A DNA stretch of 32,010 bases, taken from NCBI GenBank assembly GCA_026396255.1, contig JAPLXD010000016.1, positions 1 through 32,010 on the forward strand, in the 5' to 3' direction. The notes under the pieces are model-generated. The model was not told the origin of the DNA, made no database searches, and saw only the letters and a program-made list of their open reading frames with translations. The stretch is from Candidatus Moraniibacteriota bacterium (lineage in GTDB: Bacteria > Patescibacteriota > Minisyncoccia > Moranbacterales > UBA11712). Positions 823 to 23,555 of the stretch are shown piece by piece; position 1 is the first letter of the stretch; every line of letters begins with the position of its first letter. Position numbers and translations under genes: made by a program.

Positions 823-2223
823 TTAATGATAAATAATCATCTGATCAACGACCACGCCGCTGCCGTACAGCGCGCCGACATACGCTTTTGTCGAACTCAA
901 GAAAATATTCGCTCCCCAATACGGGTCATGAACGACATAGTTGCCGTCTTTATCTTTGTCGTGAATGACCACATAGTGCCCCGCTCCCCTCTTTGTTGCT
1001 TTCACAAAAACGATGACCGGATTTTTGTTTTTCAGTTCCGTGTCAATGACATTCCAATCAATGTTCCCATGTCCGGTCGAGGACACCAAGTTCACTCCTT
1101 TCCAAGACTGCGGCCAGACGATCAGGTCGTGTGAGAAAATCGGCTGCTTGGCCAGGATGCCCGGATCGATGTTTACGCCGTGATAGTCCAAAACCATCGC
1201 CAGGGCCGTCACCGCGCAGCCATAGCTTTTCATAAGAGTATTGGAATACCCGATGCCTTGATCTCCCCAGCGAGAATCACGCTGGTTAAAATACCAGCTT
1301 GTGGAAGCAAGACCTGACTTTGGTTTTTGGATGTTTGCTTCAACTGCAGCCAGATCGGAACTTTTCTGCTGGCTCAATTCATCAATGTCGCCCAAAAGTG
1401 ATTGTTTTTCTTCTTCAACATGTTGCAGAAGATCTTGGTATTTTTGCTCTTGCCCGTTCGTATCGGCCAAAAGCTGCTGCTTTGAGGCTTGCTCCCCGTC
1501 GAGCGCCAGTTTTTGCTGAGAGATATTCCCTCTTTGTTCTTTTTGCTGTTCGTTTTTCGCTTCAAGCGTTTTTTTCGCATTTTCCAGCTGACTTTGCGCG
1601 TCGCTGATCGAAGCAAGAACATTGTTAACCTTATCCCCTGTCTGCGAAATATATTCCGATTGGTTCATAAACTCGGAAAAGCTGGAATTTTTGAGAAGCA
1701 TCTCAGTGAGCGTGTCCTGGTCGTTTTCATAGTAGGCCTGGAGCAGCTGCCCCAAAACAATTTTCTGCGCATCAATATCTTTTTGCTTTGTTTCAATTTG
1801 CGTGGAAAGTGTCCCGATATCCTGATCCGTAGAGTCAATATTCTGTTGAAGCGTGGTAATATCTCCCTCCAGAGACGAAATTTGGCTCTCCATGAGCTTT
1901 ATCTGGTTCCCAAGCGTCTGAGCCTTGTTCTGGTTCAGATCAATCATCTGGCGATAGTTTTCCGCTTTTTGCTCGAGATCCTGGATTTGCTGCTGCTTGT
2001 CCTGGATTTGCTGCTGGTCGACCGGGCTTGTGGTCGCAGGGTTGGTCGCACCACTACTGCTTGTGCCATTTGTCGCACTTTGGGCAAATGAATGTTTTGT
2101 GATTAAATTCGCGGACAGAAAGATAAGAAGGAAATAAAAAGCTGTCGTCGCGTAGCGACACCTAAATTTGTCACCCTGCGGGTGATCCCCCGTAGGGGGA
2201 AATTTTGAAATTTTATCTTTCAT
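823..2223 (-). CDS. Secreted coiled-coil protein with C-terminal C39-like cysteine peptidase domain
   Basis: N-terminal hydrophobic segment (FYFLLIFLSANLITKHSFAQ), long Gln/Lys-rich coiled coil, then WYFNQRDSRWG...SYGCAVTALAMVLDYHG...GHYVVIHDKDKDGNYVVHDPYWG with Cys/His/Asp arrangement typical of Peptidase_C39_2. Confidence 0.8.
   Translation of the reverse strand: MKDKISKFPPTGDHPQGDKFRCRYATTAFYFLLIFLSANLITKHSFAQSATNGTSSSGATNPATTSPVDQQQIQDKQQQIQDLEQKAENYRQMIDLNQNKAQTLGNQIKLMESQISSLEGDITTLQQNIDSTDQDIGTLSTQIETKQKDIDAQKIVLGQLLQAYYENDQDTLTEMLLKNSSFSEFMNQSEYISQTGDKVNNVLASISDAQSQLENAKKTLEAKNEQQKEQRGNISQQKLALDGEQASKQQLLADTNGQEQKYQDLLQHVEEEKQSLLGDIDELSQQKSSDLAAVEANIQKPKSGLASTSWYFNQRDSRWGDQGIGYSNTLMKSYGCAVTALAMVLDYHGVNIDPGILAKQPIFSHDLIVWPQSWKGVNLVSSTGHGNIDWNVIDTELKNKNPVIVFVKATKRGAGHYVVIHDKDKDGNYVVHDPYWGANIFLSSTKAYVGALYGSGVVVDQMIIYH
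2147..2205. repeat. Intragenic cluster of three small hairpins at the 5' end of the C39-like gene
   Basis: gtcgc-gta-gcgac (2147-2159), tcaccc-tgc-gggtga (2171-2185), tccccc-gta-ggggga (2186-2200), with aaattt flanks at 2164-2169 and 2200-2205; encodes KFPPTGDHPQGDKFRCRYATT before the signal peptide. Confidence 0.75.
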
Positions 2224-13986: not shown

Positions 13987-15171
13987 TTACTTCAGTTTAG
14001 ATTTCAAATATCCGTAATATTCAACGTTCGCGCTATTTTTGTTCGTATAGTTTTCCAAAACTTTTTCCCTGGCAATCTCGCCCATTTGTCTCCTCAAATC
14101 ACCATTCAGAATCAACTTCTCCAGTTTTTCTTTCCATTCTTCGTCATCACCGGCCACAAATCCGTCCACACCGTCCTCGATCGCCTCTCGAAAGGTTTGT
14201 GTCGCCGCAGCCACTGTTGGCACGCCCACAATCCCCGCTTCGATGAATTTTAGTTCCGATTTTGACTCGCAAAAAGGGTTGCCGATCTCAAGCGGCGCAA
14301 TATTGATGTCAGCGCCCGCAATATTTTCTAGATGCTTCTCCCACGGCACAAAGGGATGTTTTTTCACCCGCTCGTCGAAATTTGCTTGCCTTTGATCAAT
14401 TTCAAGCGGACCGAAAAGATGCAGTTCGACTTGCGGATATTTTTCGAGAAGGCCGGAAAGGACGTCTTTCACCGTCTCAAAATCCTTGTCGTGGCTGGCT
14501 GTTCCGGAAAAATAGCCAATTTTCACAGGCGTGGAGATTCGATCTCCATTTGGAGATCGAATCTCCAAAATCTTTTGCGCGACTTCAACATCATAATTCG
14601 ACAACTTGTTTTTCGAAACGAAAACTTGTTTTCCATGTGTCTTCAATTTTTCCGCAAGATATGACGTTGCTGTCACACAAGTTTTCGCATAATCGTCGTT
14701 CAAAATTTCGCTGCCCACTCCGGTCTCATATTGCTTGCGCTCAAGCGTGTTGAGTCTTTCAAAAAAGTCCATCCGCTTCACATACTCCGGATCATAGACC
14801 AGATCGTCCGTTTCAAAAATAATTTCTTTTTTTTGCGCCTTGATGTTTTCGATCATCTTCGCGATGGTATTGGAATAGATCGTCTTTTGGAAAATAAAAA
14901 TCTTGAACCGGTCAGCGTAGCGCGGCAAGAGCGGATTGTCCTGGACCGTGACGCTGCATTTGAAGCCATGCAGCCTCAACTCTTCCGCCTGCCGCTCGCT
15001 GCGATATTTCGCGCTGTCCCCCACTCCGCTGGAAATGAAAAGGATGTCGCCCGATCCGACGCGTCCGAACAATTTGAAAAAAGAAACGACGGATCTTTTC
15101 CCGCCGCGCAAAATTCCCTCGCGTTTCATCGCGCTGATCCCCTTTCCCAATTTGACCGACCACGATTTCAT
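13987..15171 (-). CDS. GT-B glycosyltransferase (GT1/GT4-like)
   Basis: KIGYFSGTASHDKDFETVKDVLSGLLEKYPQVELHLFG...ADINIAPLEIGNPFCESKSELKFIEAGIVGVPTVAAATQTFREAIEDGVDGFVAGDDEEW. Confidence 0.88.
   Translation of the reverse strand: MKSWSVKLGKGISAMKREGILRGGKRSVVSFFKLFGRVGSGDILFISSGVGDSAKYRSERQAEELRLHGFKCSVTVQDNPLLPRYADRFKIFIFQKTIYSNTIAKMIENIKAQKKEIIFETDDLVYDPEYVKRMDFFERLNTLERKQYETGVGSEILNDDYAKTCVTATSYLAEKLKTHGKQVFVSKNKLSNYDVEVAQKILEIRSPNGDRISTPVKIGYFSGTASHDKDFETVKDVLSGLLEKYPQVELHLFGPLEIDQRQANFDERVKKHPFVPWEKHLENIAGADINIAPLEIGNPFCESKSELKFIEAGIVGVPTVAAATQTFREAIEDGVDGFVAGDDEEWKEKLEKLILNGDLRRQMGEIAREKVLENYTNKNSANVEYYGYLKSKLK
14532..14567. repeat. Intragenic double-hairpin palindrome: tggagat-tcg-atctcca tt tggagat-cga-atctcca
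   Basis: 17-bp perfect inverted repeat with 2-nt spacer; each arm is itself a 7-bp stem with a 3-nt loop. Encodes EIRSPNGDRIST in frame within the GT-B gene. Confidence 0.9.
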
Positions 15172-16382
15172 TTTTTTGTTAATTTCTCAAATATCTCAAA
15201 CAACTTTTTGGCTTCTTTTTCCTCACCCAATTCTTCCATATCATAATGAATTTTCTCTGAAGTTTGGATACCCTCCAAGATGCCGTCCAAATCGCCGAAA
15301 TTCTGCATATAATGGCCTTTTTCTCCCAGTCTCGCGCGGTTGAATTCTTTTTCGAAACAAACGATCGGACATCCGGCCGCCATCAGATTGACCAATTTTC
15401 CGCTGCCTTCCGTCGTACTGCCATTTTTCGGATCAATCGCCGCGTCAGCCAGCGCCAGATAGGCCGGCAAAGAAAAATATTTCACTCTCCCCGCAAAATA
15501 TACGGAATCTCCAAGATTATTTTTTCCGACATATTCTTTGTATTTTTCTTCATCGTTTCCAAATCCGCCGATGAGCAGTTTCCAATCTTTCTTTTTCCAA
15601 AGCTCGGCTTTTTCCTTCCGAGAGTTGAACTCTCGGAATTCCTCAAAGCCAAGCTTTTTTATATTCTTGAATGCTTCGAGCAGTTCGCCGACTCCCTTGT
15701 TGTCGCTCAATCCCCCGATATAGACCAATAACTTTTTTCCTTCCGCCCATTCTTTGATCTCGGCAATCTTTTTCTGCTCATCTTGGGTCAAGCGCGGAAT
15801 ATTCCGGAAAAGCTCCAAATCAATCCCGTCGCGGACGATGTCGATTCGATCCTTGTGCTTGTACAATTGTTCCATCTGCGGCTTCACGTTCTCACTGCTC
15901 ACCACCAGCCAATTGCAGCGGTTGATCAAACGGCGAGAAAGCCATACGAAAAACCGGCGGGCGATGAAATTTTTCCGGTTGTAGCTTTTGAACTCTTCTT
16001 CGAGATCCGCCTGCAAATCAACGACCACGGGAGGATTTTGAAATGTCAGTCTTTTTGCCACATATCCGACACCAAATCCTTCGTACATATGGCCATGGAT
16101 GATGTCCGGTCGAAATTCCTTGATCAGCCGGCGGCACAAGAAAATCAATTTGATGTCGAGCCAAAATTTTCCCCAGGAAAATCCCGGAGCCGTCCGTTTG
16201 TACCATCCGACTTTCCCGATCCGCTCGATATCAAGACCGGCAATATCATCTCCCGAAAAATAGGTGCAAATTTTCACTTCAGCCCCGAATTTTTCAAGAT
16301 ATTTCGCGTCGCCGTATATCCGCATATGGCAGCCCCGATCGGAAAAGAAAGACGTCGCTGCAATCGTCAAAACTTTCATCAT
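15168..16382 (-). CDS. GT4-family glycosyltransferase
   Basis: LLVYIGGLSDNKGVGELLEAF...WKLLIGGFGNDEEKYKEYVGKNNLGDSVYFAGRVKYFSLPAYLALADAAIDPKNGSTTEGSGKLVNLMAAGCPIVCFE. Confidence 0.9.
   Translation of the reverse strand: MMKVLTIAATSFFSDRGCHMRIYGDAKYLEKFGAEVKICTYFSGDDIAGLDIERIGKVGWYKRTAPGFSWGKFWLDIKLIFLCRRLIKEFRPDIIHGHMYEGFGVGYVAKRLTFQNPPVVVDLQADLEEEFKSYNRKNFIARRFFVWLSRRLINRCNWLVVSSENVKPQMEQLYKHKDRIDIVRDGIDLELFRNIPRLTQDEQKKIAEIKEWAEGKKLLVYIGGLSDNKGVGELLEAFKNIKKLGFEEFREFNSRKEKAELWKKKDWKLLIGGFGNDEEKYKEYVGKNNLGDSVYFAGRVKYFSLPAYLALADAAIDPKNGSTTEGSGKLVNLMAAGCPIVCFEKEFNRARLGEKGHYMQNFGDLDGILEGIQTSEKIHYDMEELGEEKEAKKLFEIFEKLTKK
15616..15638. repeat. Intragenic hairpin palindrome ttccgagagt-tga-actctcggaa
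   Basis: 10-bp perfect stem, 3-nt loop (or 11 bp with 1-nt loop), inside the GT4 gene, encoding EFREFNSRKE. Confidence 0.85.
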
Positions 16383-16846
16383 ATTTTTTCGATATTATCC
16401 CCGGGAATCGGTTCCGGATAGAAAACAAATCTTTTTCTCATAAAAAAATTCCACTGGAGAACCAGTATGATTGCCACCAATTTGGCAATCATCACGTATA
16501 TTTTCAGCTTGTCCACCAAAACCCAAAGGATGAGCTCCGTCCAAGCCAGCCCCCCGAGGCCAATCATCGCGAAAACGGAAAATTCCCTTTTGATTTTTCC
16601 GCTGCTCTGGAAAACCAAAAACGAGTTGAGAATATAATTGACGGTTATGCCGCAAAGAAAGCTAACCGCAGCCACAACGAGATAGTTGAGATGCAAAAAA
16701 TGGGTCAAAACAAAAAGGATGCCGACGTCCGTGGCAGTTGCGACCGCTCCGCACATCAGATAGCGAAAATATTGCAAAAGACCCTTGTTGACCTTCCGGC
16801 CCAGGATTTTTTCGATAATTTCATCGATCCAGTCTTTTATGTTCAT
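16379..16846 (-). CDS. GtrA family membrane protein
   Basis: LLQYFRYLMCGAVATATDVGILFVLTHFLHLNYLVVAAVSFLCGITVNYILNSFLVF. Confidence 0.9.
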   Translation of the reverse strand: MNIKDWIDEIIEKILGRKVNKGLLQYFRYLMCGAVATATDVGILFVLTHFLHLNYLVVAAVSFLCGITVNYILNSFLVFQSSGKIKREFSVFAMIGLGGLAWTELILWVLVDKLKIYVMIAKLVAIILVLQWNFFMRKRFVFYPEPIPGDNIEKI

Positions 16847-16862
16847 ATGAAATACAATTCAC

Positions 16863-18698
16863 TTATTGATTGATAAATTCTGACGCTTTAAAAACTTTCA
16901 CAAAATCGTTTGGATTGTTGTTGATGATGAATCGGAAGGAATAGTTGTTGCTCTTGTATATTTTCTCGAAATCCGCGATATTTTTGAGCGATTTGGACAT
17001 CTTGAGGCTGCGGGAGCGGCGGTCGGTCGAAACGACAAAATAGTCGATCTTGTTCTGCAAAAAAGTTGTTTTCTTGAAATCGATGAAACATTTTCCGGCA
17101 AAAACTTCGCAAACCGCCCCTTTGTCCGACCAAATCGTCATATCATGGGCGTTGGGCAAACTATTGAGATAGCTGGCCGCCTCGAAGCTCCCTTCCCCCA
17201 TTCCCTTGAGGTTCACGATGAAATTGTTCGGCAAAATTTCGGACGCATAAGCCAGAAAATTCGGCCGGGAGATGAAGAGACTGCCCAAAAGCACGACAAT
17301 CAAGACCGCGTAAACTGTCAAAACCGGAACAAATTTCTTGACTTTTTTTATTTCAAGAAATTGGGAAACGCCGATAGCCGCCACCACAAAAATAAGCGGA
17401 TACACTATAATCTGGTATCTCACCGTTGCAATCACCGAATTTACCGCGTTGCCGAGATAGAAGATGAAAAGAAAGATGAGAATATAGACAACGGTGATCG
17501 TATCGCGCCGCATTTCTTTTTTTCGGAAAATATTGACCACAGAGAGCAGAATCAAAATCAAAATGAGCGGTGAAACGCTGAAAAGCAAACTATAGAGATC
17601 GGAAGAAATCGCGCCGCCGTATTTTTGCAGTCCATTCCCCTGTCCAAGCCCTTTGGGCTGCGAAATAAGCGCCTGCATATCAATAATATGAACATGCCCG
17701 TAAACGTGCAAAAAAACGAAAGCGGCGAAAGCCAGAAACAAACCGGCGAAAAATTTGGCAATCACACCGCGATATTTCGCCAAAAAACCAAAGATGATAT
17801 TTGAAAACTTGGCTTCAAGCAAAAACGTATCCGCAGCCACCAAAACAATAAGACCGACAAAGAGCGGCCAGGTGGATGAGAAAACTTTGTTCCCGATCGT
17901 GGCATGGATAAGCGTCGAAATTTTGACCCAGGTCGCCGGGAAGAAAACAAAAGCCGTCACCATGGTCGCCAGGACAAGAATGACATAGTTGGCGAGCGCT
18001 TGTTTCAAATATTCCCCGATGGCAACCTTTTTGTGGGCGTGGAAGATATATTCCAAAAAGAAAACCAGGAAAAAATAGACCAGGAGGATATTGGCCACAT
18101 ATTTGGTGATGACGGAAAGTCCGAGAAAAAAACCGGAGAGAATAAGAAATTTTCTTTCACTTCCTTTGAGAAAAACGAAAAGACTAAGCGTAGAAAGTGC
18201 CGTGAGGATCCAAAGAAGCGCGTCCGAATTGATGATGAGGGAAATGCCCAAGAGGACCGGGGAAAGACCCATGAAAAGAAGCGAGAACCTGGCCACGTTT
18301 TTCCCGAGCAGCTTTTTGATGAGCCAATAGAAAACGGGAAGCATGGCGAGCGTGAAGAGAAAAACAGGCAGGCGCAATTTGAAATAGATGTCCCGGATCT
18401 TTTGGATCTGGTCGGGCGTTTTGGGGTCATAGCGCAAAGGCTGGAGATCTTTCGGATTTTCACCGATGAACGGCAGTCCCGCCCCGGAAACAATCGCCAA
18501 AGGCACGCCCGGCTTGTCGGATATGTTCGTGTTTTTCCACTTCATCTTCTGGATCGCGTTCCAAAACGTGGGAACCCGGCCATACGACCAATACGGCTCG
18601 TCCACTCCGGAAAAATTTGCCAAGCGATGAAATCCGAAATAGAAGCTCGAAGCGACAATGACCAAAAAAATGAGGATTGTGATTATTCTTTCTTTCAT
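16863..18698 (-). CDS. GT-C (GT39/PMT-like) membrane glycosyltransferase
   Basis: Polytopic; YFGFHRLANFSGVDEPYWSYGRVPTFW acidic loop motif; paralog of 18876-20732. Confidence 0.8.
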   Translation of the reverse strand: MKERIITILIFLVIVASSFYFGFHRLANFSGVDEPYWSYGRVPTFWNAIQKMKWKNTNISDKPGVPLAIVSGAGLPFIGENPKDLQPLRYDPKTPDQIQKIRDIYFKLRLPVFLFTLAMLPVFYWLIKKLLGKNVARFSLLFMGLSPVLLGISLIINSDALLWILTALSTLSLFVFLKGSERKFLILSGFFLGLSVITKYVANILLVYFFLVFFLEYIFHAHKKVAIGEYLKQALANYVILVLATMVTAFVFFPATWVKISTLIHATIGNKVFSSTWPLFVGLIVLVAADTFLLEAKFSNIIFGFLAKYRGVIAKFFAGLFLAFAAFVFLHVYGHVHIIDMQALISQPKGLGQGNGLQKYGGAISSDLYSLLFSVSPLILILILLSVVNIFRKKEMRRDTITVVYILIFLFIFYLGNAVNSVIATVRYQIIVYPLIFVVAAIGVSQFLEIKKVKKFVPVLTVYAVLIVVLLGSLFISRPNFLAYASEILPNNFIVNLKGMGEGSFEAASYLNSLPNAHDMTIWSDKGAVCEVFAGKCFIDFKKTTFLQNKIDYFVVSTDRRSRSLKMSKSLKNIADFEKIYKSNNYSFRFIINNNPNDFVKVFKASEFINQ

Positions 18699-18761
18699 AA
18701 GCTTATTTTGCTCCTTAATCCAATAAAAATTAGCCTTAATGGCTTCGAATCAGGCTATATA

Positions 18762-18790
18762 ATTATATCCCAAAAAAACGATTTTGTGAA
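18762..18790 (-). promoter_or_regulatory. Sigma70-like promoter: TTCACA -17 nt- TATAAT (minus strand), upstream of the GT-C gene at 16863-18698
   Basis: -35 at 18785-18790, -10 at 18762-18767, spacer exactly 17 nt; downstream GGAG Shine-Dalgarno-like motif before ATG. Confidence 0.6.
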
Positions 18791-18854
18791 CCCCTCACCA
18801 CGGCCGCAAATCCCCCTCTAAATTGCATTTACATAGCTTATCCGTGGTGAGGGG
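18791..18854. repeat. 13-bp perfect inverted repeat cccctcaccacgg ... ccgtggtgagggg, 38-nt loop, directly abutting the promoter -35
   Basis: Arms at 18791-18803 and 18842-18854, read directly. Confidence 0.85.
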
Positions 18855-18875
18855 CGAATGGCTCATCGCAGTATT

Positions 18876-20732
18876 TCAAGGCAAGCTGTCGGCCTTCATC
18901 ACTTTCACAAAATTTCCGCTTCGGCCGCCAACGTTCAGTTGAAATTGGTATGGATTTGTTTCCGAATATAAGCTGCCGACTTCGATGGCGCCATTCAGTT
19001 TTGTAAGTCTTGTTTGTGCCATATGGACGGATTTGGCTTCCCTCCCCGCACTGACGACAAAATAATCAAAACTGGTATTCAGCTGATCCGGCTTGAGGGT
19101 GTCCGAACAGGCTCCCACAAACGCCTCACATACCCCGCCTTCATCCGCCCACACCTTGATATTTTTCGCATCAGGAAGGCCGTTGAGATATTGCGCCGAT
19201 TCCCAGCTGCCGTCACCCATATTGCGCAAATCCAGAATATCTTGTTTTGGGAGCAAATCGGATGTGTACGACAGATAAAAGGGCCTGATGGAAACCAGCG
19301 ACCATATGGAAACGGCAAACAAGATCAAAAGAACAGCCAGGTGCGAACGAACGGAAGAAAAATATTTTTTCAGACTTTTCATGTCCAGCAAATGGCCAAG
19401 CCCGATAGCGGCGATGATGGAAGCGACGGGATAGAGGACGATCTGATAACGGGGAGTCGGACTCACTCCGCTGGCAGCGGATCCGAGGTAGTAAAAAAGA
19501 ATAAACAGGAGCAGACAGAAGACGGGCAGCGACTCGTCCTTTCCCATCCGGCGCACGCCGGATCGCACCACGGCGAGCACGAAAAGAATGGCTGCGGCGG
19601 GAATGAGGCTGAAAAGAAACGGATAAAAGGAAGAGAGCATGATGATGAGAGGTTCGCCAAAACGCGCGTTTATTTGCTTGAGTTCAAGCGTCGGAAAATT
19701 GAAGACCGGCTGGAAATCAAAAAATTTCATCCCCGAATACGTGTTCACGAAAACAAAAGCCATCAAAGCGAGCGCGATGGCATATACGGCTCCGCGAAGC
19801 CAATTTTTTCGCGTCCGGATTGGATCGCATATCATACTGATGATTTTGCTTTTCAGAAGATAGGTATCAGCAGCGGCCAAAAGCAAGAGCGCGAAAAAAA
19901 TGCGCCAGGTCCTATAGAACGCCTTGCTGTATATGGTCACGTCAAGCAAAATTTTCGGCTTCACCCAGACGGCCGGGAAAAAAACAAAGATCGTCACGGC
20001 CGAAACCAGGATCAAAAGCCCGAAATCGGCGAAGGCTTTTTTGAAATACTTTTCGGCTCCGCGCGTTTCGCCCTCGAAAATATATTTCAAAAAAATAAGC
20101 CCGAAAAAGAAAAGAAAAAGGATGTTCGCGATATATTTGTCAATAAGAGCCAATCCCAGCAAAAATCCGCTTAAGTATAGGAAATTTCGGTTGTTTTCTT
20201 TTTGGTAGACCAGAAAACTCAAAAGGGCGAGCGGGATCAAGCTCCACAAAACAGCGTCCGCGTTGATCATCAGTGAAATCCCGAGAAGAACGGGAGAAAG
20301 CCCGATGAAAATGATCGAGGACCGGGCGATATTTTTCCCCAGCAGCTTTTTGATGAGCCAATAGAAAATAGGCAGCATGGCCAGCGTGAAGAGATATACC
20401 GGCAGGCGCAAATCAAAATACAGGCTGCGGAGCGCCTGCAAATCTTGTGGGCTTTTCGGTGCGTAGCGCAAGTCTCCGAGCTTCGCCGGATCGCCGCTCA
20501 CCCAATGCAAACCGATGCCGGAAATGGCCGCCAAGGTGACGCCTGGCTTGTCGCAAAGCGCCGTGTACTTCCATTTCATACTTTGGATAGCATCCCAAAA
20601 TTGGGGCACCCGGTCGTAGGACCACAAAGGCTCGTCCACGCCGGAATAACTTTCAAGACGATGAAATCCGAAATAAACGCTTGTCGCGATGACAGCGACA
20701 AAGATCGAAATCGTGATGATTCTTTCTTTCAT
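18876..20732 (-). CDS. GT-C (GT39/PMT-like) membrane glycosyltransferase
   Basis: Polytopic; YFGFHRLESYSGVDEPLWSYDRVPQFWDAIQSMKWK; strong similarity to 16863-18698. Confidence 0.8.
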   Translation of the reverse strand: MKERIITISIFVAVIATSVYFGFHRLESYSGVDEPLWSYDRVPQFWDAIQSMKWKYTALCDKPGVTLAAISGIGLHWVSGDPAKLGDLRYAPKSPQDLQALRSLYFDLRLPVYLFTLAMLPIFYWLIKKLLGKNIARSSIIFIGLSPVLLGISLMINADAVLWSLIPLALLSFLVYQKENNRNFLYLSGFLLGLALIDKYIANILFLFFFGLIFLKYIFEGETRGAEKYFKKAFADFGLLILVSAVTIFVFFPAVWVKPKILLDVTIYSKAFYRTWRIFFALLLLAAADTYLLKSKIISMICDPIRTRKNWLRGAVYAIALALMAFVFVNTYSGMKFFDFQPVFNFPTLELKQINARFGEPLIIMLSSFYPFLFSLIPAAAILFVLAVVRSGVRRMGKDESLPVFCLLLFILFYYLGSAASGVSPTPRYQIVLYPVASIIAAIGLGHLLDMKSLKKYFSSVRSHLAVLLILFAVSIWSLVSIRPFYLSYTSDLLPKQDILDLRNMGDGSWESAQYLNGLPDAKNIKVWADEGGVCEAFVGACSDTLKPDQLNTSFDYFVVSAGREAKSVHMAQTRLTKLNGAIEVGSLYSETNPYQFQLNVGGRSGNFVKVMKADSLP

Positions 20733-20734
20733 CT

Positions 20735-21748
20735 TTAATTTTCGATGATTTCTTTTATTTTATAATTCATTCCTCCGTGCGCCTTGTAATAGCTTTTCGT
20801 GGCAATATCGGCCAAGAGTCCGAAAATGAAGAGCTGGATCCCCGTCAGCAAAAGAAATACCGCCACCAACGGCCAGTTCTTGTCCGACATCCTCACGCCA
20901 TAGGCAAATTTTTCCACAAAAAGCACCGCGGTCAAAATGAAGCCGAGTCCAAAGACAAGCAAACCGCCGGCGCCGAAAAGATGCAAGGGCCGGTTGGCGT
21001 ATTTTTTCCAGAACCAGATGGAAATCATGTCGACGATTCCCTTTACTCCCCGCTTCCAATTGTATTTGGTCACGCCGTGCTTGCGCGGATGATGACTCAC
21101 CGGAATTTCCCCCACCTTGAAACCCTGGATCTTGAGGGCGGCCGGGATGAACCGGTGCATTTCGCCGAAGAGATCGAGATCATCAAAACATTCCCGCTTG
21201 TAGGCTTTGAGGCTGCACCCGCTGTCCTGGATCCCATCGTCAATCAGAATTTTGCGCACGATGTTCGCTATGCGCGAATTGAATTTTTTGAAAAACTTGT
21301 CTTTTCTGTCTTTGCGCCAGCCGGAAACGACATCATAACCTTCGTCCATTTTTTTCAGCAATTTTCCGATGTCCGCCGGATCGTTTTGCAGATCGCCGTC
21401 CATCGTGATGACAATCTCCCCGGTCGAGTTTTTGAATCCCGCGTCAAAGGCCGCCGTCTGGCCGAACCACTTGCGCTGGACGATGAACTTGAGGGGCGAA
21501 AGAGTCCGGCAGATCTCATTGGTTTTGTCCGTGCTCCCGTCATCGATAAAAACGATCTCAAAAGTTTTTCCGAGCGCCCGGCAGGCTTCGACGATCCTTT
21601 GGTGCAATTCGCGCACATTCCCCTCCTCATTGAAGAGCGGAACGACGACAGACAAATCCGGGTTCTTGCCCCGCATAAAAATATCTTGCTCCGATTTTTG
21701 GTCGTCGTTTTCCGCATCTTTTGTGCGGGGTTGGCTGGTGTTTTCCAT
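20735..21748 (-). CDS. GT2 polyprenyl-phosphate glycosyltransferase with C-terminal TM helices (GtrB/DPM1-like)
   Basis: LSVVVPLFNEEGNVRELHQRI...IVFIDDGSTDKT...GQTAAFDAGFKNSTGEIVITMDGDLQNDPADI...DSGCSLKAYKRECFDDL plus two hydrophobic C-terminal helices. Confidence 0.93.
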   Translation of the reverse strand: MENTSQPRTKDAENDDQKSEQDIFMRGKNPDLSVVVPLFNEEGNVRELHQRIVEACRALGKTFEIVFIDDGSTDKTNEICRTLSPLKFIVQRKWFGQTAAFDAGFKNSTGEIVITMDGDLQNDPADIGKLLKKMDEGYDVVSGWRKDRKDKFFKKFNSRIANIVRKILIDDGIQDSGCSLKAYKRECFDDLDLFGEMHRFIPAALKIQGFKVGEIPVSHHPRKHGVTKYNWKRGVKGIVDMISIWFWKKYANRPLHLFGAGGLLVFGLGFILTAVLFVEKFAYGVRMSDKNWPLVAVFLLLTGIQLFIFGLLADIATKSYYKAHGGMNYKIKEIIEN

Positions 21749-21754
21749 ATATTT

Positions 21755-21783
21755 ATGATAATCTAAAAAAGGATTAAAATCAA
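21755..21783 (-). promoter_or_regulatory. Sigma70-like promoter TTGATT -17 nt- TATCAT (minus strand); predicted leaderless start for the GT2 gene
   Basis: -35 at 21778-21783, -10 at 21755-21760; only 6 nt between -10 and ATG (21748). Confidence 0.5.
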
Positions 21784-21797
21784 AGAAAAATTCATTT

Positions 21798-23555
21798 ATG
21801 AAAATATTTTTGGGTATTTTGGTGTTTTTTCTCGCCTTCGGCTGGCTGGTTTTGCTCCTGGCGGCGACTGGTTTATTCTACTTCGGAGCAATCGTTTTGT
21901 CAATTTTGGCCAGCTTTGTCTTGGCCTGGCTATTTTTGCCTAAGATAAGCCAAAATATAGACTTCAAAACCGGCAAAATATTTGGTCTGGTGGCTTTGCT
22001 TTCTCTTGTCATTTCTCTCGCCGCCTGCCATTTTGCCACGCCGACCGTTTTCGGCGGAAGGGACCAAGGATCGATTGGCACGGCCGCGATATATCTTTCC
22101 CAAGGTCACAATTCCAAGGTCAATCTTCCGGTCGCGCATGACCTTTTTCAAAAATACGGACCGGGCAAAGCGCTCAACTTCCCCGGCTTTGACTACGCCA
22201 AGGACGGCAGTCTCTTTTCCCGTTTCCCGCTCGGTTTCACGTCGTATCTTGCCGCTTCATATAATTTGTTTGGTCTCAAGGGGATCCAGTATGCCAATTT
22301 TGTCCCGTTGTTTTTCTTTCTGATCCTAAACTGGCTGATCATCAAAGAATTTTTCGACGACAAAGTTTCTCTGCTTGGATATCTCCTCGCCGCGACTTTT
22401 TTTCCGTTCCTGTGGTTTGCCAAATACGCCCTCACGGAAACATATACGCTTTTCCTTGTTTGGGCGGGAATATATTTCCTTCTTCGATTCCAGAGCCAAA
22501 ACCAAGGTCGAACCTTGGGAAAATCCCAAGGTTCGACCTTGGTCTGGTTTTCCCTCGCCGCCTTCGCCCTCTCGGCGCTCGTCCGAATCGAAGGCATTGT
22601 TTTCTTTTTCCTCGCGGCCATATATATTCTCCTGCTGCAAAGAAAAAAAATTCTGGATCTGCCAAAGAATTTCAAAAGAAATCTCGTGATTGCGACTTTG
22701 GTTTTGCTGGCGCTGTACTTTTTTCTTAATTTTCCTGATCTCATCGACAGCGGCAAGAATCTGGTCAAGGCGTTTCTGCCCAACTCCGCCAAGGAATCCG
22801 CCCCGTCAGCCAATATGTATGAGTATCTCGCCCGAATATTTTTCAATTATAATCTGCTCGCCTATATTCTCATTGGACTCGTCGGCATCATCCTGCTCGC
22901 AAAAAATATCCGCAAAAATTGGCTCAAGACTGAATTTCTCCCGCTTTTTCTCACTTTCCCGACTTTCATCTATCTCCTTTCGCCGATGATCACGCTCGAC
23001 GAGCCGTGGTTTTTGCGCCGGTTCGTTTTCGCCGTCTTCCCGGCGCTGCTCCTCTATTCAATCTATGCCCTCCAAAAATTTTTCTATCACAAAATGTTTT
23101 TGTATTTTGTCCTCGTTGTTTTGATTGTCGCCAACGGAGTCGTGAGCTGGCGTTTTTTCACCACTTCGGAAAACAAAGAGCTTCTCCCGCAGATCGAAAA
23201 AATTTCCCAAAAATTCGGCTCGGACGATCTGATTCTGGTTGACCGGATGGCCACCGGCAGCGGCTTTTCGCTCGCCAGTGAGCCCTTGCAGACAATATAC
23301 GGAAAACAAGCCGTCTATTTCATGAACGCCGACGATTTGAAATTCATCAATCAGGATAGATACAAAAATATATACCTGCTCACGCCGCTCATAAGCGAAG
23401 AACAAAATCCCTGGTACGCCGACCTCGTCACGGACAAATCCCCCGCCGACGCCCAAATTATCACCAACAATTTCCTCGAACCGGCTGACAACAAATACGC
23501 CCTCGCCCAAAATGTCGAGACGAAAGATCTGATGGTGGTTTGGAAAGTGAAGTAA
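21798..23555 (+). CDS. Polytopic GT-C (GT39-like) membrane glycosyltransferase
   Basis: Polytopic; FGGRDQGSIGTAAIYLSQGH... loop, ALTETYTLFLVWAGIYFLLRF, LVRIEGIVFFFLAAIYILL. Confidence 0.75.
   Translation: MKIFLGILVFFLAFGWLVLLLAATGLFYFGAIVLSILASFVLAWLFLPKISQNIDFKTGKIFGLVALLSLVISLAACHFATPTVFGGRDQGSIGTAAIYLSQGHNSKVNLPVAHDLFQKYGPGKALNFPGFDYAKDGSLFSRFPLGFTSYLAASYNLFGLKGIQYANFVPLFFFLILNWLIIKEFFDDKVSLLGYLLAATFFPFLWFAKYALTETYTLFLVWAGIYFLLRFQSQNQGRTLGKSQGSTLVWFSLAAFALSALVRIEGIVFFFLAAIYILLLQRKKILDLPKNFKRNLVIATLVLLALYFFLNFPDLIDSGKNLVKAFLPNSAKESAPSANMYEYLARIFFNYNLLAYILIGLVGIILLAKNIRKNWLKTEFLPLFLTFPTFIYLLSPMITLDEPWFLRRFVFAVFPALLLYSIYALQKFFYHKMFLYFVLVVLIVANGVVSWRFFTTSENKELLPQIEKISQKFGSDDLILVDRMATGSGFSLASEPLQTIYGKQAVYFMNADDLKFINQDRYKNIYLLTPLISEEQNPWYADLVTDKSPADAQIITNNFLEPADNKYALAQNVETKDLMVVWKVK
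22501..22543. repeat. Intragenic double-hairpin palindrome: accaaggt-cga-accttggga aaa tcccaaggt-tcg-accttggt
   Basis: 20-bp perfect inverted repeat with 3-nt spacer; each arm is a 7-bp stem with CGA/TCG loop. Encodes NQGRTLGKSQGSTL in frame inside the GT-C gene. Confidence 0.92.

Follow-up and report, generated by a model that had tools for sequence, protein, structure and literature searches.

In-frame palindromic doublets in Moranbacteria genes are probably REPIN-like mobile elements

Two perfectly palindromic segments lying within genes of a Candidatus Moraniibacteriota bacterium are probably REPIN-like elements, that is, inverted REP doublets that are non-autonomous and would be moved by RAYT-like transposases; judging from sequence, we place the probability of this reading at about 0.83. 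Both lie in the 32,010-nt stretch of DNA analyzed here (the window; contig JAPLXD010000016.1 of assembly GCA_026396255.1). In the window's genome and its relatives, such inverted doublets form multi-copy families, sit in frame in core genes at sites that are empty or differently filled in orthologs, and have stems that recur at the flanks of cognate RAYT genes. We identify the system as REPIN/RAYT-like: its doublets have stems that also occur beside Y1 tyrosine transposase genes, either in the genome itself or in a sister genome.

The first element (14532..14567, minus strand) is a 36-bp member of the GGAGAT family in which TGGAGAT-TCG-ATCTCCA is followed by a 2-nt spacer and an inverted copy, giving 17-bp arms (14532-14548 and 14551-14567) with 100% complementarity. 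The second (22501..22543, plus strand) belongs to the CCAAGG family and consists of CCAAGGT-CGA-ACCTTGG and its inverted copy, with 7 nt between the small hairpins; read as one long inverted repeat, it has 20-bp arms (22501-22520 and 22524-22543), also 100% complementary, around a 3-nt spacer. The two REPIN-like units measure 36-43 bp overall, and both halves of each form small hairpins of their own, with a 7-bp stem and a TCG or CGA triloop. RNA folding favored the single long hairpin over two small ones for both elements (-29.0 and -37.4 kcal/mol). The first-pass annotation of this DNA had described perfect inverted repeats with arms of 17 and 20 bp at these positions, arms that are themselves triloop hairpins, and retention of the reading frame, and all of this held: the 14532 element reads EIRSPNGDRIS in ORF 13990-15171 (minus strand) and the 22501 element reads NQGRTLGKSQGSTL in ORF 21798-23555 (plus strand). 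Its claim that such elements exceed chance was likewise borne out, since the window ORFs contain 2 strict doublets (stems of at least 6, a loop of 3 nt and a gap of at most 12), whereas 300 synonymous-codon shuffles and 300 codon-order shuffles gave none. The stems had also been called unrelated, which is correct insofar as their sequences differ, but both fit the inner-arm pattern RA(G/C/A)RY beside the triloop (GAGAT and AAGGT).

The gene that contains the first element (13990..15171, minus strand) encodes a GT-B glycosyltransferase with a Glycos_transf_1 domain (Pfam PF00534, E=1.3e-12, residues 217-369), and its insert (LEIRSPNGDRIS) lies in the linker directly preceding the C-terminal Rossmann domain. 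An AlphaFold2 model from eight orthologs, which is of modest quality (mean pLDDT 66, and below 50 at residues 205-212), predicted residues 206-215 to be coil, preceded by a helix (192-205) and followed by a strand (216-221) that forms the first strand of the second domain. This predicted coil position is in keeping with a tolerant linker. The second element lies inside a polytopic membrane protein of 585 aa (21798..23555, plus strand), previously read as a GT-C; the ORF matched no Pfam family at 1e-5, and its insert falls in a loop between hydrophobic segments.

To place these elements among others like them, we used the genome of the window (G000; 925,653 bases in 61 contigs), in which there are dozens of palindromes of 36-60 letters, and sampled stretches amounting to 463 kb of G000, 605 kb of G004 and 800 kb of G005. 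The 463 kb of G000 yielded 25 strict doublets compared with 0 in dinucleotide and synonymous-codon shuffles, and a looser definition yielded 72 compared with 0, 0 and 0 in the controls, with the caveat that doublet density in G000 is biased upwards because the stretches were partly picked around matches. The GGAGAT hairpin had 51 matches in G000 (at most 2 mismatches) and the CCAAGG hairpin had 10, with none for either reversed-pattern control. Within G000, the hairpins of a family were mostly arranged as inverted pairs at unrelated loci without common flanks, and near-identical doublets of 34-35 nt were present at 17 unrelated loci whose flanks are not shared. A templated hairpin-duplication process, raised in the first-pass annotation, is not needed to account for this spread, as identical doublets recur at unrelated loci with no flanks in common. 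We looked for a common flanking or target motif around the doublets and found none.

Most families do share one property: the inner arm of the stem, beside the 3-nt loop, follows the pattern R-A-(G/C/A)-R-Y (GAGAT, AAGGT, GACAT, AAAGC, AAGGC, GAGGT, AAAGT, AACAT and AAGAT), with AGGGT as an exception and CCGCC-type classes that differ. This shared pattern explains why the same architecture had been seen with unmatched stems. The tetranucleotides at the feet of the hairpins were close to background, with GTAG at 1, GTGG at 2 and CGTC at 0 of 92 ends.

The doublets sit predominantly inside genes. All 17 GGAGAT doublets lie in ORFs, mostly those of core genes, as does one GGAGGT relative, and 20 of 21 doublets of the GAGAT-core family lie in ORFs of at least 150 aa, the coding fraction of the sample being 0.83. 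Hosts of GGAGAT-type doublets recognized by Pfam included the PheRS beta chain, Asp/Glu racemase, PriA, topoisomerase I, RuvX, ribosomal protein L23, a class II (D/K/N) tRNA synthetase, UvrC, CysRS, SMC, MurB and TGT; the in-frame host genes include pheT, topA, priA, uvrC, rplW and smc, and an ATP synthase subunit of the alpha/beta family hosts a related doublet, of the GACAT type. Two families whose stem or loop contains stops (AAGGC, which has TTA/TAA loops, and AACAT) were extragenic in the G000 sample, although the numbers are small (two of two cases each). The doublets with a 34-nt core in G000 were all in one frame (6/6), which is the sole open frame of the TAA-loop form, and those with a 35-nt core used all three frames. 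Were frames equally likely, six of six alike would have a probability of about 0.004, although this regularity was noticed post hoc.

In relatives, the orthologous linkers often held a different palindrome. Both host genes were present in all eight genomes of the family (8/8), and the linkers of both were empty in some relatives and held other palindromes in others. The membrane-protein linker carries ACTTGGAAAC in G004, TTTTAGACGT in G005, TCGTAGGTGT in G007 and AAGGT in G003, and what appears to be a decayed hairpin in G006; the GT-B linker carries GGAGAC-TAA in G002, TGACGAAGGC in G005 and CTGACGGGAG in G007, and again a decayed hairpin in G006. Two of the stems in the membrane-protein linker, those of G007 and G004, are the flank stems of two different RAYTs of G005. 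Of 42 ortholog sites in the sampled genomes, 18 had a hairpin of 6 bp or more compared with 10% of random windows, and 13 had one of 7 bp or more compared with 5% of random windows in the same genes; these sites are not all independent, as certain genes are represented by two genomes. Other orthologs were free of any element, for example those of the ATP synthase subunit and SMC. At three G000 GGAGAT sites, a relative carries a TAA-loop doublet in codon-for-codon register (GT-B in G002; TopA and a LysRS-like gene in G004); all three encode LETKSPIGDLVS, and the G004 pair do not differ at any base. A fourth TAA-loop doublet (G004 C14:33394) has no ortholog among the sampled G000 stretches. Among the orthologs, mostly at 55-87% protein identity, we saw neither a transposition event nor an excision product, and no empty site that was exact to the nucleotide. 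The many families, the coexistence of empty and filled orthologous sites and the absence of doublets from shuffles give good support to the earlier proposal that small palindromic insertion elements, defined by structure and diverse in sequence, form a class.

Palindromic elements of other designs were also observed. A composite 'class B' element in the window (15599..15657, minus strand; in frame in ORF 15168-16382) has AAAGC outer hairpins that enclose a TTCCGAGAG inner hairpin. The G005 ortholog has the same outer hairpins with another inner hairpin at the same site, as if the core had been swapped and the frame kept, and the G004 ortholog is without the element. Class B elements are about 56-60 bp long, with AAGGT or AAAGC outer hairpins; the segment between these often forms a hairpin too, with TTCC...GGAA at its feet; further composites were seen at L048:10296-10351, L049:691-746, L067:8411-8466 and L077:1449-1509. 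A 'class C' doublet (TCACCC-TGC-GGGTGA / TCCCCC-GTA-GGGGGA) lies at 2171..2200 (minus strand), in frame near the N-terminus of ORF 823-2223. Class C-like doublets are GC-rich 15-mers placed back to back in frame (for example TCCGCC-NNN-GGCGGA twice, 30 bp), and others were found at L058:2349-2378, L072:7779-7809 and L118:11260 (G005); for two class C-like doublets outside the window, one ortholog alignment each shows a 30-nt gap at the position of the doublet. Longer C/T-rich intragenic doublets of about 85-95 bp (CTCTCCCTTT...AAAGGGAGAG and TCCCCCTTT...AAAGGGGGA) were located at the G004 ortholog (L149) of L051:16650, at L049:1576-1669 and at L057:10905-10989. In G104, which belongs to another family of the same order, there are three near-identical TTGGAGACTAAATCTCC doublets (C33:17220-17255; C33:23281-23316, L258; C66:13115-13150, L259), one of which is in frame as LETKSPIGDLVS in a 610-aa ORF resembling threonyl-tRNA synthetase. 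Finally, positions 1-120 of the window resemble the C terminus of an insertion-sequence transposase of the integrase type (YYNQERQQWNLKKMTPVNYRNHLL), and from this resemblance the contig probably breaks at an IS copy.

Seven genes in G000 exceeded the cut-off for PF01797 (Y1, IS200-like), and the HxH motif (H90, H92) and Tyr151 are invariant in the five main ones. Against the NCBIfam model REP_Tyr_transpos (NF047646, cut-off 80 bits), these five scored 20-32 bits and so fall below the cut-off, C48 scored 66.7 bits and C40 alone passed (86.9 bits); a phmmer search of a RAYT against PDB sequences returned no matches. Most G000 Y1 genes have gene-specific hairpins a short distance from their start or stop codon, which would fit the terminal hairpins of IS200/IS605. 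Examples of the stems are CTATTCGAGAT at C28, TCCTAACAT on both sides of C51 and CCAAGG upstream of C53, a gene whose inner stem differs between its two flanks. The CCAAGG stem of the 22501 element is thus found directly upstream of the C53 Y1 gene, and it is also present inside that gene. Ahead of the HxH motif, the C53 RAYT gene (L052:15643-16341) contains an in-frame doublet of the CCAAGG family (DPRPNLGAPPRFGLGFG) that its four paralogs lack.

Across the order, 57 of 131 genomes have a RAYT relative. At 17 of the 37 full-length relatives the two flanks share an inner stem (triloop hairpins of 7 bp or more whose inner five bases are identical) compared with 1.6% of random positions, although these loci are related to each other and the 17 are not independent events. 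A flank stem tends to be scattered through the genome of its RAYT and rare in others (ACTTGGAAAC, 9 copies in G005 and 0 in G000; TCGAGAT, 7 copies in G000 and 0 in both G004 and G005), and several recur outside the RAYT locus in the same genome. For the family of the 14532 element, no RAYT with GGAGAT flanks was found in the family and order genomes searched; the nearest is C28 (TCGAGAT), which differs by one stem pair. G004 has doublets and no RAYT homolog, and doublet density does not follow RAYT number (G005 has 8 RAYT matches and 3.8 doublets per Mb).

We propose that RAYT/IS200-type Y1 tyrosine (HUH) transposases cognate to the doublets most likely recognize the hairpin by its stem and loop in single-stranded DNA, such as may be met at replication forks, and would move the doublet in trans. 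As GTAG/CGTC tags are absent, recognition would have to differ from the E. coli type. Insertions would persist if the element brings no stop codon into the frame of the host gene and falls in a tolerant protein linker, so that copies would accumulate in core genes and later decay to ordinary linker sequence. With several RAYT families of different stems in the clade, the same permissive linker would be hit by different families across genera.

The presence of different palindromes at one orthologous position might instead reflect rewriting in place, which we consider rather unlikely: the insertions would be old and inherited, and the stem and loop of an occupied site would later have been exchanged for those of the currently active family by gene conversion or RAYT-guided replacement. 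The codon-for-codon placement of all three TAA-loop doublets compared, at sites where G000 has its own GGAGAT doublet, the peptide that these three share and the confinement of 34-nt cores, but not 35-nt cores, to one frame are hints of inherited slots whose sequence was later replaced. However, target-site preference together with a permissive linker would give the same picture; the exact coincidences number only three and were noticed after looking, and co-occupied linkers mostly have unrelated stems with boundaries that shift by a few nt. If rewriting does occur, palindromic 'slots' in core proteins would be passed down on the time scale of genera, and the sequence in them would change together with the resident transposase.

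Retention of the palindromes for a host function (an mRNA hairpin for translation or decay, a protein-binding site or an uptake sequence), with mobility secondary, would suit the strong predicted mRNA hairpins and the many copies within one genome, but it is made improbable by a patchy distribution over the order, where the TGGAGAY form occurs in 3 of 131 genomes, by the many empty orthologs and by stems that are unlike between sister genomes. Hairpin-templated mutation, in which quasipalindromes would be corrected by template switching in replication with no mobile element involved, would account for stems that are perfectly paired though their sequences differ across genomes; we regard it as very improbable given the near-identical doublets at unrelated loci, the empty orthologs and the match of stems to transposase flanks. 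Position in coding sequence is all that speaks for a linker that merely encodes a palindrome, whether as conserved protein sequence or by chance, and with 0 doublets in 300 synonymous-codon shuffles and linker sequences that differ among orthologs we give this reading almost no weight. An assembly artefact was ruled out by recurrence of the pattern in independent MAGs, and intrinsic terminators do not account for in-frame doublets in mid-gene.

Read as REPIN-like, these elements would constitute a dense multi-family system in a reduced genome with an unusual target, since they lie in frame in core genes and different families occupy the same linkers in sister genera. The in-frame core-gene sites and the different palindromes at the same linkers make them look like elements that repeatedly supply proteins with new sequence, and the old proposal that mobile palindromes make new protein segments becomes testable by comparison. 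The many natural pairs of RAYT and stem also offer material for studying how transposases recognize untagged hairpins.

That REPINs are inverted REP doublets moved by RAYTs is an established proposal (Bertels and Rainey, 2011, PMC3116915; RAYTs in PMC2817692). As in that account, short palindromes in Moranbacteria form inverted doublets that can fold into one long hairpin, and there are several families per genome, a number of them near a Y1 gene of their own (PMC3116915). The doublets examined here are inverted short palindromes with a short spacer, multi-copy and dispersed with no shared flanks, and a family-specific Y1 gene flanked by the repeat was found for several families, including CCAAGG (with the differing C53 flanks), but not for GGAGAT in the genomes searched. 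In size, the Moranbacteria doublet spans 36-43 bp with a spacer of 2-7 nt, whereas SBW25 GI has 71 bp between 16-mers; SBW25 REPINs are described as extragenic, whereas the Moranbacteria ones are mostly intragenic and without the GTAG tag (PMC3116915). Neither the GTAG/CGTC foot tag nor the predominantly extragenic location of classical REPs was found.

In Di Nocera et al. (2013, PMC3733652), in-frame REPs and dimers are described in core and repair genes (uvrA, tRNA synthetases), as are TIRtrons/TIRYTs, RAYT-like genes flanked by untagged, partly self-complementary repeats, and one case of different REPs at approximately the same site, in recB of two Xanthomonas species; the sections consulted do not mention Patescibacteria. 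Compared with GTAG/CGTC REPs and TIRtrons as described there, intragenic location is the rule for the main Moranbacteria family and co-occupied linkers are frequent. Quentin et al. (2018, PMC6006769) describe tnpAREP genes of subclass 2.4 that themselves contain in-frame REPs, and the C53 RAYT with its in-frame CCAAGG doublet resembles these genes; some TnpAREP subclasses (2.4, 2.6 and class 3 were compared) have untagged, atypical hairpins that are copied in the genome. The main text of that paper does not contain the terms CPR or Patescibacteria, and in the literature collection searched, which takes in only a minority of subscription papers and preprints, RAYT and Patescibacteria did not occur together in any paper. 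The precedent named in the first-pass annotation, that of Rickettsia palindromic elements (RPEs), holds for where the elements sit, as these too are palindromic and lie in frame within functional genes, again in a reduced genome (PMC3733652). A REPIN/RAYT-like system is the better match, since the stems match Y1 gene flanks: in the same source RPE-4 and RPE-6 are counted among CGTC repeats and have no dedicated transposase, whereas Moranbacteria have transposases with matching hairpins and no CGTC tag. The Moranbacteria system is best read as a REPIN/RAYT-like system, of a known kind, that is special in its untagged hairpins, its intragenic location and its recurrent occupation of the same linkers.
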